The position numbers were made by a program, and so were the translations under genes. The notes under the pieces were generated by a model, which saw nothing but the letters and a program-made list of their open reading frames with translations, did no database searches and was not told where the DNA came from. DNA of 33,726 nucleotides from Planctomycetota bacterium (GTDB lineage Bacteria; Planctomycetota; MHYJ01; JACQRL01; SBBU01), in NCBI GenBank assembly GCA_016206485.1, contig JACQRL010000217.1:1-33726 (forward strand), given 5' to 3'. Of this stretch, positions 1 to 29,941 are shown piece after piece. The stretch's first letter is position 1. Each line of letters starts with the position of its first letter.

Positions 1-487
1 AAAGTTGCCCGCGCAAAAGTCCCGGACGGGACATGAATAAGCTTCTGTTTTTTCGTTGTATTCAAGTTGATAACTTGTAGATCATTTACTTTGACTTGTG
101 AGAAACCAGTAGGATTTTCTGTATTATCTATTCCACCAGTTTCAGATTTAATTATTGATTTAAGATCACCCAATTTAATCACATCATCTTCAAATTGTTT
201 ATCTTGAATTTTTTTATAATCATTTGATTGAAGATTTATATCCTTCAGCTGTTCTTCGAGCATACTTATTCTCTGTTGAAGACTTTCCACTTCTGCATCT
301 TCTGTTTTTCTCAATGCGAGAGCAAGTTTTTTAAAATCGTCAAATGAATCAACCTGAAAATCCTGCGCTATATTATTTGAGTTTTGTGTTGAATTTGATT
401 CACACTTCGCAATTATTCCGACAATCAACAAAAGTACAATAGGCACCAATAACAACAAAATAAATCCAACGAACTTCCCTTTTATCA
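1..487 (-). CDS. traB: TraB/VirB10-like conjugation protein, N-terminal part (truncated at window edge)
   Basis: Reverse-strand reading from ATG at 487: MIKGKFVGFILLLLVPIVLLLIVGIIAKCES..., then a coiled-coil segment and HVPSGTFARAT, which resembles the start of the TraB periplasmic domain. Lies directly downstream of a TraK-like gene. Open at the left edge. Confidence 0.7.
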
Positions 488-1171
488 TCTGTAAAATACA
501 CAAAAAACATATCCTTTTTGACCTGGTGGCAATTGATATGTAGTCGTTCCAACCAAAAGAAGACCATCACTTCTAAATCTAGTTACGTCAATTTCATATG
601 ATGATTTACTGTGATTTTCAACTCTTAGTATATAACCAAGATAGAATCCATAAGTATATGAATAAAGAGCGTAAAATTTGATTCCGTCCATCTCATACAA
701 AGGATCATTCGAATATCTTATTACCTTTGCGCCGTCTAGTACTACTCCCATTCTCATTGCCTTGACCAACTCAACAGCAGTAATCTTGATCTGTGGTTGC
801 TTCTGAGCGAATTCAATTTTCACTGAAAGATCTGGCTTCTCTTTAACACTCTCAATATAAAGTCTATAAAGTTTATCGGAGCTCCCAATAACATCGAAAA
901 AACCCGATTTATCTAATAAAAGTCTAAGAAATAATCTGTTGCCTTTGGCGACAACTGACAGCTCATCACTTGCCCATCCACTTACAACCGTTTGCAATGA
1001 ATTTTCTGGAAACTCTATAACTGTACTCGAATTCGATGATGAATCACAAATCAATTTAATCATAATCGCCTGGTTAGAATCAGTGTATAAAGTAATTCTG
1101 GCATTATCTTGTTTGTTTGTTTCTTGTTGCTGTCCAGTTAAAAGTAAAAATAGTAATACAAATATTATCAT
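485..1171 (-). CDS. traK: TraK-like (VirB9/secretin-like) F-type conjugation protein
   Basis: N-terminal hydrophobic segment, VSGWASDELSVVAKGNRLFLRLLL, ELVKAMRMGVVLDGAKV, and a C-terminal YILRVENHSKSSYEIDVTRFRSDGLLLVGTTTYQLPPGQKGYVFCVFYR typical of the TraK C-domain. Position next to the TraB-like gene agrees. Confidence 0.65.
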   Translation of the reverse strand: MIIFVLLFLLLTGQQQETNKQDNARITLYTDSNQAIMIKLICDSSSNSSTVIEFPENSLQTVVSGWASDELSVVAKGNRLFLRLLLDKSGFFDVIGSSDKLYRLYIESVKEKPDLSVKIEFAQKQPQIKITAVELVKAMRMGVVLDGAKVIRYSNDPLYEMDGIKFYALYSYTYGFYLGYILRVENHSKSSYEIDVTRFRSDGLLLVGTTTYQLPPGQKGYVFCVFYR

Positions 1172-1801: not shown

Positions 1802-2122
1802 TTATTTCCCCATACCTGCTTTAACAGCATTTCCAAAATCAATACCGAAAAGCGCTTGAACTGCTGAAGGCAGGACTGCAAGAACTATCGCAGCTCCTAT
1901 ACACATAACCGCGAAGTCCCATTCCCCTTTTTTAATTCCCCTTCCAACTCCATACAAACCACAAAAGAGACTTAGAATGGGGAAAACCCATTTTACGATT
2001 ATGTTAACAACAGACCCAAAAAGCATCTGAGCGCTTTTATCAGTGTTTGATTCTGCCTGCCCAAAAACTTGACCAGACAAACTTAATACAATAAGAAAAA
2101 CGAGAAAAAGTTTTTTACACAT
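1802..2122 (-). CDS. Pilin-like / TrbC-VirB2-like small membrane protein
   Basis: Signal peptide followed by two hydrophobic segments, 106 aa, first gene of the tra-like operon. Good Shine-Dalgarno (ACAGGAGGCC) upstream of ATG. Confidence 0.5.
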   Translation of the reverse strand: MCKKLFLVFLIVLSLSGQVFGQAESNTDKSAQMLFGSVVNIIVKWVFPILSLFCGLYGVGRGIKKGEWDFAVMCIGAAIVLAVLPSAVQALFGIDFGNAVKAGMGK

Positions 2123-2194
2123 AACATGGCCTCCTGTAAATATTTCAGATACTTTGAAAAAAGTGAAAGAAATTCTTAAAAAGATCCGACCTAG

Positions 2195-2212
2195 TTTCTA
2201 GACTACTAGACA
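2195..2212. promoter_or_regulatory. Imperfect dyad TTTCTAG-ACTA-CTAGACA, candidate LexA operator
   Basis: 7-4-7 dyad with one mismatch overlapping the -35-like TAGACT (2199-2204) and the 17 nt spacer before TATACT (2222-2227), upstream of an operon that encodes LexA. Confidence 0.5.
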
Positions 2213-2227
2213 TTTGTATAGTATACT
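2199..2227 (+). promoter_or_regulatory. Predicted promoter TAGACT-N17-TATACT of the SOS operon
   Basis: Near-consensus -10 with optimal spacing. The -10 ends 7 nt before ATG 2235. Confidence 0.55.
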
Positions 2228-2234
2228 GTGATCT

Positions 2235-2474
2235 ATGAATCAATGCATAACAGCATCTGTTACGTTCAAGAAAGGTGAACTAATCCCCAATTGGTTCACA
2301 TACGCTGGTGAACAACATAAAATCGATCGAATTTTGTTCAGATGGAAAAAGAAAGAGGGGCATGAAACAATCTTCTACTTTGCTGTAGAGGCAGATTCTA
2401 CCCCCTACTCTCTTTCATTTTCAACCAGAAACATGTCATGGTATATAGAACAAGAGGAAGCGTGTGAACAATAA
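2235..2474 (+). CDS. Small protein (79 aa) preceding a Y-family polymerase
   Basis: Complete ORF overlapping the next CDS start by 11 nt. The pattern (..F.Y.GE.HKIDRILFRWKK....YF.VEAD...Y.L.F....WYIEQE) looks like small proteins linked to Y-family polymerases (possibly DUF6504-like; not verified). Confidence 0.65.
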   Translation: MNQCITASVTFKKGELIPNWFTYAGEQHKIDRILFRWKKKEGHETIFYFAVEADSTPYSLSFSTRNMSWYIEQEEACEQ

Positions 2475-3702
2475 TTCACTTTCGAAAATCTTATTTCATA
2501 TAGATATGGATGCATACTTTGCAGCATGCGAGATAGCAAGTCGCCCTTACCTTAAAGGTAAACCTCTTGTCGTAACAAATCATTACAGACACATCGTGCT
2601 CACAGCAAGCTATGAAGCAAGGGCGTTTGGAATAAAAACAGGAATGCCGCTGTATCGTGCACAACAACTATGCAAGACACTCAAAATAGTATTCGCTGAC
2701 CCAGACAAATACATTTCAACTACAGGTAGTATTCATGAGCTGTTGTTAACGATCACCGATCGGTTCGAACCACTATCAATTGATGAAGTTATTATGGATG
2801 TTACACAAGTATCAAGTAATTACTGCGACGCTGCTAAACTTGCCTACAAAATAAAGTTTGAAGTAAAAAAACAAATCGGGGTGACGTGTTCGATTGGGAT
2901 ATCTCCATCACGATCAATATCTAAGTATGCTTCCGGTGTTAACAAGCCAGATGGACTTCATGTAATTAGTAAAAATAACTTTTGGAATGAGCTTAAAAAT
3001 ATTCCTGCATCTGAGATAGCTGGAATTGGCTCATCGACAAAATTACTATTAAAAAGTGTAGGCGTATATACATGTATCGATCTGCATAAATGTCGAATAG
3101 AGATACTTCTCAAACTCTTTGGACAAAACGCATTTCATTTGAAGTCTTTGATTCTGAATGATGCGGTCAAAACTTTCTATGACAGGGAAGCTGCAAAATC
3201 AATAAGCTCATCTCACACTCTGATAAAAGATACTGATAACATTGAAATTCTCACATCATTTCTAGAATTTCTTGTTTGGAAGGTATCAGATAAACTAAAA
3301 ATGGAGGGTCTTACAGCTACAGAAGTTTCTTTGTCAATAAGATATGAAGATTTCACGCATTCTAATCATTCAACAACGCTGAAAGAACCTGTTAACTCCA
3401 CTTCCATGCTTTATAATATAGGAAAGGCCATACTCTCCTTTTATTTACCATTAAAAAAGAAAGTACGGCTATTATGCTTCAGAGTTAAATGTATAGAACC
3501 TCGATACAAGCAGCTTACATTTTTAAATATGCAAAAAAGCTCTAGATTTGAAGTAGCATGCCAAAAAATAAACAGGAAATACGGAAACTTCACTGTAAAA
3601 CCAGCCATGGTTATGCTTTTTGAGGCCTTTGGTAAGCCAGAAAAAGTGATCCCCCCTGTTTTTACGGATATATATGGAAAAACTTACAGAGCAACAAGGT
3701 AA
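2464..3702 (+). CDS. dinB: Y-family DNA polymerase (Pol IV-like)
   Basis: KILFHIDMDAYFAACEIASRPYLKGKPLVV, TASYEARAFGIKTGMPLYRAQQLCK, PLSIDEVIMDVT, GVTCSIGISPSRSISKYAS: classic Y-family motifs. GTG start. Confidence 0.93.
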   Translation: MNNNSLSKILFHIDMDAYFAACEIASRPYLKGKPLVVTNHYRHIVLTASYEARAFGIKTGMPLYRAQQLCKTLKIVFADPDKYISTTGSIHELLLTITDRFEPLSIDEVIMDVTQVSSNYCDAAKLAYKIKFEVKKQIGVTCSIGISPSRSISKYASGVNKPDGLHVISKNNFWNELKNIPASEIAGIGSSTKLLLKSVGVYTCIDLHKCRIEILLKLFGQNAFHLKSLILNDAVKTFYDREAAKSISSSHTLIKDTDNIEILTSFLEFLVWKVSDKLKMEGLTATEVSLSIRYEDFTHSNHSTTLKEPVNSTSMLYNIGKAILSFYLPLKKKVRLLCFRVKCIEPRYKQLTFLNMQKSSRFEVACQKINRKYGNFTVKPAMVMLFEAFGKPEKVIPPVFTDIYGKTYRATR

Positions 3703-4249
3703 GATACTTAGATTTATAAAACAATTCATCGAAACATACGAGATTTCACCTAGTATTCGGGAAATTTCAGAAAAATTTGGGTTTAGGTCGACAAAAGCAG
3801 TTCAGGATCACCTTGCGGCAATTGAGCGAAAAGGTTATCTGAAAATGTTGAAGAAAAAAGCCAGAGGTATTCAGATTATAAAACATGGAATTCCGTTACT
3901 AGGATATATACAGGCTGGAGTTCCAACCGCAGAAGACTTCAGCTTAGACGACTACATAAACATAGAATCAGCTGAAAATATATTCGCTCTCAGAGTAAAA
4001 GGAGATTCAATGCAAGATGCGGGAATAATAGAAGGGGATTTATTATTAGCAGTCAAAGATCCAAAAGTGATAAAAAATTATGATCTGGTTATAGCTCAGC
4101 TCAACAATGAATATACCGTTAAATATTTTAAAAAAGAGAGCGGAAAGGCGTGGCTTATCCCGGCAAATAAAAAGTACAATAAAATAGAGATCAAAGATGA
4201 CATTATTATAATCGGGAAAGTCCTGTCTGTTGTAAGACAGTACAAATAA
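3674..4249 (+). CDS. lexA: LexA SOS repressor
   Basis: N-terminal wHTH (LTEQQGKILRFIKQFIETYEISPSIREISEKFGF), Ala-Gly cleavage site (YIQAGVP), Ser (KGDSM) and Lys (EYTVKYF) catalytic residues. Start lies inside the polymerase 3' end. Confidence 0.93.
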   Translation: MEKLTEQQGKILRFIKQFIETYEISPSIREISEKFGFRSTKAVQDHLAAIERKGYLKMLKKKARGIQIIKHGIPLLGYIQAGVPTAEDFSLDDYINIESAENIFALRVKGDSMQDAGIIEGDLLLAVKDPKVIKNYDLVIAQLNNEYTVKYFKKESGKAWLIPANKKYNKIEIKDDIIIIGKVLSVVRQYK

Positions 4250-4250
4250 T

Positions 4251-4326
4251 CGGGGCGTAGCTCAGCCTGGTTTAGAGCGCTTGGTTCGGGACCAAGAGGT
4301 CCAGGGTTCAAATCCCTGCACCCCGA
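4251..4326 (+). tRNA. tRNA-Pro (anticodon CGG)
   Basis: Cloverleaf read by eye: acceptor CGGGGCG/CACCCCG (one C6-A67 mismatch), D-arm GCTC/GAGC, anticodon stem CTTGG-TTCGGGA-CCAAG, T-arm CAGGG-TTCAAAT-CCCTG, discriminator A. CCA not encoded. Confidence 0.93.
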
Positions 4327-7181
4327 TTCTTATGCCACCAAATTTTGACAATACATAAAATCATAATGAGCAATACCAGTGAAGTTACACTAAGGTTATG
4401 AGGACTTTTTATTTCCGTGATTCTTGTTGAACCAAAACAAGGTTCAGGTTTTTTCTTAGTTCTGGAAAAACTCTGTTGAGGTGAGCTTGGATTCGGATTT
4501 AAATTTGAGTTTGCAGGAGGAGGAGGATCAGGAAAAAAAACAGGGGGTGTAGGGACTTTCGGATTTGCTCCCTCCTCAAACGTGGTTGCAGAGACAGGTC
4601 CTGCTTCCGGCGAACAATTACCAGAAGAAAAGCCCTGAATTGTATAAAAGTATGTTGTGTCTGGAAGTAGACCACTATCTACATAATTGATATTACTTCC
4701 GGCAATTTGTGAAACTACTTCATAACTCCCATTTATTGTTCCAGATCGCTTTATAGTGTAGGAAGTAATTCCACTTTGTAATTCCCATTGAATTTGAATT
4801 TCGCTATCAGATAATGGAGTTAATTCTAAATTAGCCGGCGGAGGCAAAGTTCCAGCAGCAGTTACATTTACTGTAGAAGTGTTTGAAGGAACTGAATAGA
4901 TTGTCCCTGATGATGAGTTTAAAAATGCCTTTATTCTGTATGAAACTGCGGTTGTCGTACAAGAAGGAGTTGGTGGGATGTTAGTTGTAGAAGATGATGA
5001 GGCAGTTCCGTTTATAGTCGTTATAACTTGAAACGATCCAGACCCTATTTTTCTTTCAATTACAAAGCCATTTGCGTTGGCAGAGTATGGAGACCATGAC
5101 AGCTGGATATTCGATGCATTCAGCGTTGCCTGAAAATTCTGTGGAGGAGGTACAACGGGAGATGCGCCCGGATCAGGCAACGTGACAGTAGTGCCTTGCA
5201 CCCAAGAAGAATATACGGGATCGTGAATAGCTCTCACTCTCCAAAAGTAAGTTGATTCCGGTTGCAGCTCATTAATAATAATTTGATAAAGAAATAATGG
5301 GTCGTTGACATATTCCGTACTTTCATCAGAAAAAATAATAGATCCAAATGATTCATCTTCTGATAATTCCACGCCGAATGAGGATGGTGTCTGTAGCGAA
5401 GCTCCTACTTCAGAATAATCCCAATGCCAACTGATTCTCACATGATTTGGCCCTGTACTAATACTAATATTTTCCGGCGGGAAAAGAGCATTAGTCTCTA
5501 TTTCCACTGAGATTTCACCTGACGGGATAGAATATGAAATTAAAGCTTCACCAGAAACTTCAACTTCCGAAACTGTTATTACTCTATATAAAATTTCCTG
5601 AGTTGTCAATCCAGGTATTATAGTCGACAGATCATCCGTAAATACTGAAGCACTAGGAGATGAACTATTTAATACCCCTATCTGCGCGTAACTTTCACCA
5701 TAATTGATACTTCTTTCAAATATATAAGAACTCACAGAAAGAGTTGAATTCGGTGTGAATTCTAGTGTAACTTGTTGTGAACTGCTGTCATATAAACCTT
5801 GAATTTCATTTAATGGATTCGGTCTGAATACAGCCAAGCTCTGATTAGTTACGATCTGGCACGATATACCACCAAAATATGAAAAAACTGCTATTACATC
5901 ATCAAATGATTGGATCAACGAAATTAATACCTCAGCATCACCTGAAATTGCAATTCCCATTCCATCCACTGGGTCAATTACTACTGATCCATCTGTACCA
6001 ACCAAAGTGCAATAAATATCAGCATTTTCATCTTCATTTCGATAATCTGTCCAGAAAACAAAGAAAACTGCACCGTTAAATTTGATCAAAGGAGCAGTTT
6101 GAACACCGATTGCAGAACAGATAGTAGCAGCTGGGGGGAGTGACAAATCGGGGTCCAAAGATGATTCTATCTTTTGAACAGCAATATCGCTATTGCTATC
6201 GAAGGCTATGAAAAGCTCATCATTTTTCAGTGCAATGCTTGGGTGATGCTGTCCATCATCACTTGATAAACCTATATTAGTCGAATAAATTTTCGAACCA
6301 GTGTAATCATATTTTACAGCAACAATATCAGCATCACCACCGGAATCAGTTTCGTATGCTAAATAGATTCCTTGTTCACCAGAAATGATGTCGTAATTGG
6401 TTTCATCACTAGTATTTGGTCCTGTTACATTAATTCCATTAGTTGCATCGAAATTTGGATTAACAATCCCATTTTCATCAAAAACAGTAAAAAAAATATC
6501 TTTAGTGGGTGCCCCATTGTCACTCTCCCACGAGGAAATAAAATGATTATTGCTAAAAGTATTACTGATGAGTCGTAAGCTATCCTTATTGCCAGGATCA
6601 TTTGAGAGGATTTTTATCCATCCAACATCACCGCTACTCATGACTGAAAGTGCGACAACCTCGGTATTTGGTGAGGTCACACGTTTTCTTTTACAAACAA
6701 TCACGACATCAAACAATTGGTTTAATCTGGATGCGATAATGGGATCGGAGTAATTATAGTCGGGATCGGGAGATAAAACTCTTTCCCACGCTTTTGATTC
6801 CAGTGAGATATCATATCTGGAAATTATTATTGAATCTACCCCATCAACACGGGACTTCCAGCAGAACACCATCCCACCCGGAACCATGCAGACACCGGGA
6901 ATATCAGATGGTCCTGAGTAAGTTCCCAGCAAGAGATTTTCATCAAAAGGCATTAATTGAGATGTATATAGAATTCTTCTTGAAAAAAATCTACTATCTG
7001 CCCCAGTAAAATTTGATCCCACAACAACTGCTCCCTGGAAATTATCTGATATTGCATTATGAGCGGTAACTTCATTTATTATGCCAAAATTGAAAATTGG
7101 ATCTGAAATATTCCATTCAGGTTCACTTACAGTCAAAAGAAAATACGCTACAACATAAAGCAAAATCAGGTTTCTTTTCAT
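4308..7181 (-). CDS. Large secreted protein with fibronectin type III domains and C-terminal TM/sorting-like tail
   Basis: N-terminal signal peptide; at least three FN3-like repeats (PPPQNFQATLNASNIQLSWSP..., PPPANLELTPLSDSEIQIQWEL..., DTTYFYTIQGF); proline-rich linker; Cys followed by TM and a basic tail at the C-terminus. Confidence 0.85.
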   Translation of the reverse strand: MKRNLILLYVVAYFLLTVSEPEWNISDPIFNFGIINEVTAHNAISDNFQGAVVVGSNFTGADSRFFSRRILYTSQLMPFDENLLLGTYSGPSDIPGVCMVPGGMVFCWKSRVDGVDSIIISRYDISLESKAWERVLSPDPDYNYSDPIIASRLNQLFDVVIVCKRKRVTSPNTEVVALSVMSSGDVGWIKILSNDPGNKDSLRLISNTFSNNHFISSWESDNGAPTKDIFFTVFDENGIVNPNFDATNGINVTGPNTSDETNYDIISGEQGIYLAYETDSGGDADIVAVKYDYTGSKIYSTNIGLSSDDGQHHPSIALKNDELFIAFDSNSDIAVQKIESSLDPDLSLPPAATICSAIGVQTAPLIKFNGAVFFVFWTDYRNEDENADIYCTLVGTDGSVVIDPVDGMGIAISGDAEVLISLIQSFDDVIAVFSYFGGISCQIVTNQSLAVFRPNPLNEIQGLYDSSSQQVTLEFTPNSTLSVSSYIFERSINYGESYAQIGVLNSSSPSASVFTDDLSTIIPGLTTQEILYRVITVSEVEVSGEALISYSIPSGEISVEIETNALFPPENISISTGPNHVRISWHWDYSEVGASLQTPSSFGVELSEDESFGSIIFSDESTEYVNDPLFLYQIIINELQPESTYFWRVRAIHDPVYSSWVQGTTVTLPDPGASPVVPPPQNFQATLNASNIQLSWSPYSANANGFVIERKIGSGSFQVITTINGTASSSSTTNIPPTPSCTTTAVSYRIKAFLNSSSGTIYSVPSNTSTVNVTAAGTLPPPANLELTPLSDSEIQIQWELQSGITSYTIKRSGTINGSYEVVSQIAGSNINYVDSGLLPDTTYFYTIQGFSSGNCSPEAGPVSATTFEEGANPKVPTPPVFFPDPPPPANSNLNPNPSSPQQSFSRTKKKPEPCFGSTRITEIKSPHNLSVTSLVLLIMILCIVKIWWHKNRGAGI

Positions 7182-29584: not shown

Positions 29585-29876
29585 ATGAACCTAAGAATGG
29601 GCAAGCTGAGTTTGTTCATCGCTTTATGCGCAATTCTGGCTAATGTCGCACATGCCAATCTGGCTGGTCCGGTAAGTTGCGGAAATTCTTTTGGTCCTGT
29701 ACAATCTGTATCGTCAGGCGAGTAATTCAATATTGTGCTGAAAGACAATGGAGCAGTTTAAGGATGGGCTACAGTTTGCCGCCACGTGTGGTATTAATAA
29801 CCATGAATAACTTGGCAACGATTCAACTGTACCATACTCCAACTCACCCGTGAAAGTGCTAGATCCTTCCAGATAA
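29585..29876 (+). pseudogene. Decayed RCC1-repeat gene
   Basis: MNLRMGKLSLFIALCAILANVAHANLAGPVSCGNSFGPVQSVSSGE*FNIVLKDNGAV*GWATV..., then in another frame CGINNHE*LGNDSTVPYSNSPVKVLDPSR*. RCC1 motifs interrupted by three TAA stops and one frameshift. Confidence 0.85.
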
Positions 29877-29941
29877 CTAGAACTCATCTCACAGGAGAAA
29901 CAGTCCCTTTAACAAAAGACTAAGACTACTATACTAAATAT

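Follow-up and report, generated by a model that had tools for sequence, protein, structure and literature searches.

LexA boxes vary between lineages, 17 motifs having been counted (PMC8565304), and the E. coli-type box is CTGT-N8-ACAG, a conventional motif that the LexA of Planctomycetes is stated not to recognise (PMC3108266). Recombinases of mobile DNA under SOS control have been described as well, for example the integron integrase intI (PMC3108266) and the ISCR transposase (PMC13393415). In terms of gene organization, the MPF_F plasmid pSD of Geobacter anodireducens (CP014964) carries a lexA-orf84-dinB cassette, with the same three kinds of gene on one strand as in the locus considered here, although the gene order, the LexA recognition helix, and the promoter differ. 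Between 2300 and 4700 of pSD (L186), the dinB frame appears broken up, with a stop or a shift of frame, and the gene table does not list it. Another genome, G041, has a lexA-orf83-dinB operon in which orf83 is related to orf79 of our locus. The lexA-small ORF-dinB type of cassette is not unique to the present genome.

Here, in a window of 33,726 nucleotides (the whole stretch of Planctomycetota DNA that was analysed), a 112-bp intergenic region at 2123-2234 separates a divergent minus-strand run of tra-like genes from plus-strand orf79-dinB-lexA (Table 1). Our main reading, which we hold at a probability of about 0.8, is that orf79-dinB-lexA constitutes an autoregulated DNA-damage cassette with LexA acting at 2204-2223. 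The gene identities can be read directly from the sequence: the lexA product reaches 78.5 bits with PF01726, 82.3 bits with PF00717, and 171.7 bits with TIGR00498 (cut-off 110.95), it has both the winged-helix and the S24 peptidase domains, and the cleavage site Ala81-Gly82 and catalytic Ser112/Lys150 do not vary in the alignment and line up with LexA proteins of solved structure. By these marks the repressor is canonical and apparently cleavable. The small protein encoded by orf79 has no Pfam or NCBIfam match. Its gene has no visible Shine-Dalgarno sequence, and a leaderless message is therefore plausible. For binding, repression, and damage induction at 2204-2223, we infer the following course. 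LexA dimers would bind TACTAGACATTTGTATAGTA and block RNA polymerase at the near-leaderless promoter; RecA filaments would then provoke LexA self-cleavage at Ala81-Gly82, inducing the operon; and the induced operon would yield the Y-family polymerase, the orf79 product, and fresh LexA.

Table 1. Features around the orf79-dinB-lexA promoter, in window coordinates; "sole" refers to the searched assembly (3.45 Mb, 81% complete).
Feature	Position	Strand	Remarks
TraK-like gene of F-type conjugation run	485-1171	-	PF23536 E=6e-4, TIGR02756 E=4e-4, both below cut-off
TraA-like (pilin) gene, divergent	1802-2122	-	NCBIfam NF041281 E=0.005, below cut-off
Originally predicted dyad TTTCTAGACTACTAGACA	2195-2212	.	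6/7 pairs; CTAGACA is both its right arm and the left arm of the candidate operator at 2204-2223
-35-like TAGACT	2199-2204	+	17-nt spacer to -10
Proposed LexA operator TACTAGACATTTGTATAGTA	2204-2223	.	core CTAGAC-ATTT-GTATAG (2206-2221); 8/10 dyad pairs
-10-like TATACT	2222-2227	+	overlaps right end of operator; 7 nt to ATG 2235
orf79, small protein, function not assigned	2235-2474	+	related to orf83 of the G041 lexA-orf83-dinB operon
dinB-like Y-family DNA polymerase	2464-3702	+	PF00817, PF11799; sole Y-family polymerase found
lexA, canonical repressor	3674-4249	+	TIGR00498, PF01726, PF00717; sole LexA found

At the other end of the cassette, no gap separates lexA from a tRNA-Pro(CGG) gene: the stop codon occupies 4247-4249, and the tRNA gene begins at 4250 (window 4247-4327). 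This arrangement may reflect a shared transcript or an insertion border. The repeat of the tRNA 3' end was considered as the attachment site of an integrated element and set aside, there being no second exact copy and a copy with 2 mismatches near the end of contig C274 only. A separate sequence, CTAGAACTCATCTCA, is found both at 29868-29881 of the window and on contig C48 (L092, 1501-1514), beside a near-dyad, and is possibly a short dispersed repeat.

The original prediction had LexA binding a box of a new type, T[TG]TCTAG-N4-CTAGACA, at 2195-2212 over the -35 of this promoter. Its reading of the letters was accurate: the dyad TTTCTAG-ACTA-CTAGACA exists where it was placed, with 6/7 pairs, it overlaps the -35, and the promoter TAGACT-N17-TATACT has the spacing and the position before ATG 2235 that were claimed for it. 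Judged as a dyad, however, 2195-2212 is statistically ordinary and not above chance, given that 7+4+7 dyads with at least 6/7 pairs number 80 in the window versus 66-90 in five shuffles, and that 19% of shuffled copies of the 112-bp intergenic region hold a 7+4+7 dyad (81% if gaps of 0-10 are allowed). What is unusual at this spot is the clustering of CTAG rather than the dyad: three CTAG within 19 bp form the sole such cluster (within 20 bp) in the window, where CTAG is depleted nearly fourfold (31 observed, about 116 expected), and because CTAG is its own reverse complement, any two of them form a dyad by construction. The rarity of such a cluster in a CTAG-poor genome speaks for the new-type box, as does the half-site [GT]TCT-N8-AGA[CA], with an outer spacing like that of E. 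coli-type boxes. Against it, a scan of the assembly for TNTCTAG-N4-CTAGANA returned the site itself as the sole exact match and no SOS-gene promoter, and the 22 one-mismatch copies of the 14-bp core are either intragenic or precede genes with no connection to SOS. Absence from other SOS-gene promoters, one of the two observations that the prediction itself had named as speaking against it, is thus what the genome scan found; as for the other, the motif was not seen at the lexA promoters of relatives, among which no orthologous operon was found. Moreover, the predicted register puts a C at base -6, unlike all 13 boxes compared, and 2195-2212 scores -11.5 under the matrix of relatives' boxes described below. 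We regard a new-type box at 2195-2212 as very unlikely.

The better operator candidate, from sequence comparison, is 2204-2223, a longer dyad that overlaps 2195-2212 and is shifted about 9-10 bp downstream. It agrees with the E. coli LexA box at 14/20 positions, ranking 1 of 33,707 window positions, and it takes up the -35 to -10 spacer, touches the -10, and runs into TATACT. Clear palindromes stand upstream of lexA in relatives, many of them resembling the E. coli box (TACTGTACAGATTTACAGTA and CACTGTCGATCTATACAGTA are examples); in these boxes the right arm continues into the -10 as CAGTATA, and 2204-2223 stands in the same register relative to its -10. A symmetric matrix built from ten relatives' lexA boxes gives 2204-2223 a score of 12.97, again rank 1, with the runner-up at 10.86. 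Robustness is moderate overall: the rank stays at 1 with five boxes only (L064/66/67/72/75) and falls to 3 without the box of genome G038, to 34 with the G038 box alone, and to 196 with genus g7 alone, and the main weakness of the matrix evidence is that the relatives' boxes were picked and aligned by the analyst. As to class, the E. coli-type geometry (a 16-bp dyad, CTGT-N8-ACAG) is present, but -6 is A on both sides and not G. Like the E. coli-type box (PMC3108266), 2204-2223 overlaps the -10 of the promoter that would be repressed, and the two agree in length, in dyad structure, and in the bases at -7 (T) and -4 (A); 2204-2223 departs from that box in the A at -6 (CTAT/CTAG-N8-ATAG), and its LexA has Lys41 in place of Asn. 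From its sequence we class the site as a variant (CTAT-N8-ATAG) of the E. coli-type box, neither a strict member nor a new type. Of the idea that LexA has an operator over its own promoter, then, the general part has held up, in that a canonical lexA closes the operon and a LexA-type site lies at the promoter, while the exact site and half-sites have not, the original register being off by about 9 bp.

The same intergenic region had also raised the prospect that LexA links DNA damage to conjugation by controlling the divergent tra genes. Assignment of these genes is weak but consistent, and the run is truncated by the contig end. Between the TraA-like and TraK-like genes, at 1168-1800 on the minus strand, lies a gene for a membrane protein whose C-terminal domain is glutaredoxin-like, though the match is weak; the protein may help to form disulfides in the transfer apparatus. 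Control of tra from 2204-2223 would be in keeping with the position of the operator in the only intergenic region separating the two gene runs and with the occurrence of related lexA-orf-dinB cassettes on an MPF_F plasmid. However, 82 bp separate the operator from the traA-like start; it is probably upstream of any tra promoter and not over it, and nothing promoter-like turned up nearby on the minus strand. LexA control of the tra genes is possible but unsupported, and we would assign it only a slight chance of being correct.

Returning to LexA itself, the base at -6 appears, from these sequences, to change together with residue 41 of the recognition helix (E. coli numbering). Among 13 pairs of LexA and box, -6 is G in all 10 cases where residue 41 is Asn or Gln, and A in the other 3, where the residue is Lys (the window LexA and G038) or, once, Gly; a simple count puts this pairing at 1 in 286, a figure that, since the sequences are related, is not a proper probability. 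The G038 protein is the closest LexA relative, at 44% identity, and CTATATTTCAATATAG precedes its own lexA, with the same CTAT-N8-ATAG half-sites and the same Lys at residue 41 as in our locus; it differs in having T at -3 (C in the window) and in that its lexA stands alone, without dinB. A search of G038 for a CTATA-N6-TATAG regulon gave 8 sites, one at lexA and one 5' of a RecG-like gene, and no clear regulon. No orthologous orf79-dinB-lexA operon was seen when genomes of the class (23) and of the phylum (392) were searched, nor was any LexA relative found in viral contigs; the LexA search of genome contigs produced one distant Erysipelotrichaceae match, which was uninformative.

The reach of this repressor beyond its own operon turns on a second genomic copy of the site. 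The pattern ACTANACN4GTNTAGT matches exactly at two places in the assembly, one being the window site and the other C329:9810-9827 (ACTATACAAATGTATAGT), which agrees at 17/18 positions with the opposite strand of the window site. The C329 copy precedes a -10, TATATT, in the register seen in the window, and a Shine-Dalgarno sequence comes next, then an ORF starting MKKTAIYARVST at the contig end. In 12 simulated genomes (order-4 Markov), there was no exact match and no 17/18 match. A paralog is found at the start of contig C273, whose first bases already fall within another copy of the right half-site plus -10; after it come a leader that has diverged and a 297-aa serine recombinase (PF00239) with the N-terminus of the C329 ORF, which argues that the promoter, and not the leader, has been conserved between the paralogs. 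We infer that the C329 gene belongs to the regulon and that the same LexA probably represses this recombinase gene too. A different possibility is that the operator is real and serves the lexA operon only, the likeness at the recombinase gene being due to chance or derived from the promoter. A minimal, self-only regulon is plausible for a LexA, contig C329 covers just 12 codons of its recombinase gene, and four of the five other recombinase genes have no operator-like site; nevertheless, the 17/18 identity at a site that precedes a gene and keeps the -10 register, the absence of its like from the simulated genomes, and the retention of the right half-site and -10 at C273 all weigh against restriction to lexA, which strikes us as somewhat unlikely. 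Like the systems known from intI (PMC3108266) and ISCR (PMC13393415), C329 has a LexA-type site over a recombinase promoter; unlike them, it encodes a resolvase-type serine recombinase, with a LexA link predicted from sequence. There are at least six related genes for serine recombinases, with products of about 250-300 aa (L174-L178 and, on C329, the end of L142) and a similar C-terminal part containing helix-turn-helix-like stretches and, in several cases, leaders with short tandem repeats; they are possibly a mobile family. Of the 73 two-mismatch sites of the pattern, about 53 were inspected. Genes for DUF4143 AAA ATPases are immediately preceded, at near-leaderless spacing, by two palindromic sequences close to that of the operator (L143, 1192-1209; L144, 36-53), which are weak candidates only for operators.

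What this would mean for the SOS response depends in part on recA, which is present in the assembly, 15 bp behind nuoA in what looks like a shared operon (L017, contig C135, 3-1466). Neither the proposed motif nor the originally predicted one forms a local LexA box at recA, and any promoter 5' of nuoA lies beyond the contig end; with recA boxless behind nuoA, the regulon does not look classical and recA-centred. A tentative suggestion is that this cassette-borne LexA, its recognition helix altered (Lys41) and its box altered to match (A at -6), serves mobile DNA, controlling its own mutagenic polymerase and a multi-copy serine recombinase with recA outside the regulon. If so, DNA damage would trigger both mutation and recombination; and if the recombinase link holds, damage would switch on error-prone synthesis together with a recombinase of mobile DNA. 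For the LexA family, several of the lineages compared here would be exceptions to the statement on Planctomycetes LexA (PMC3108266), provided that they are Planctomycetota. Evolutionary steps between LexA box types are rarely visible, and here the step may come down to one base and one residue, which makes it directly testable.
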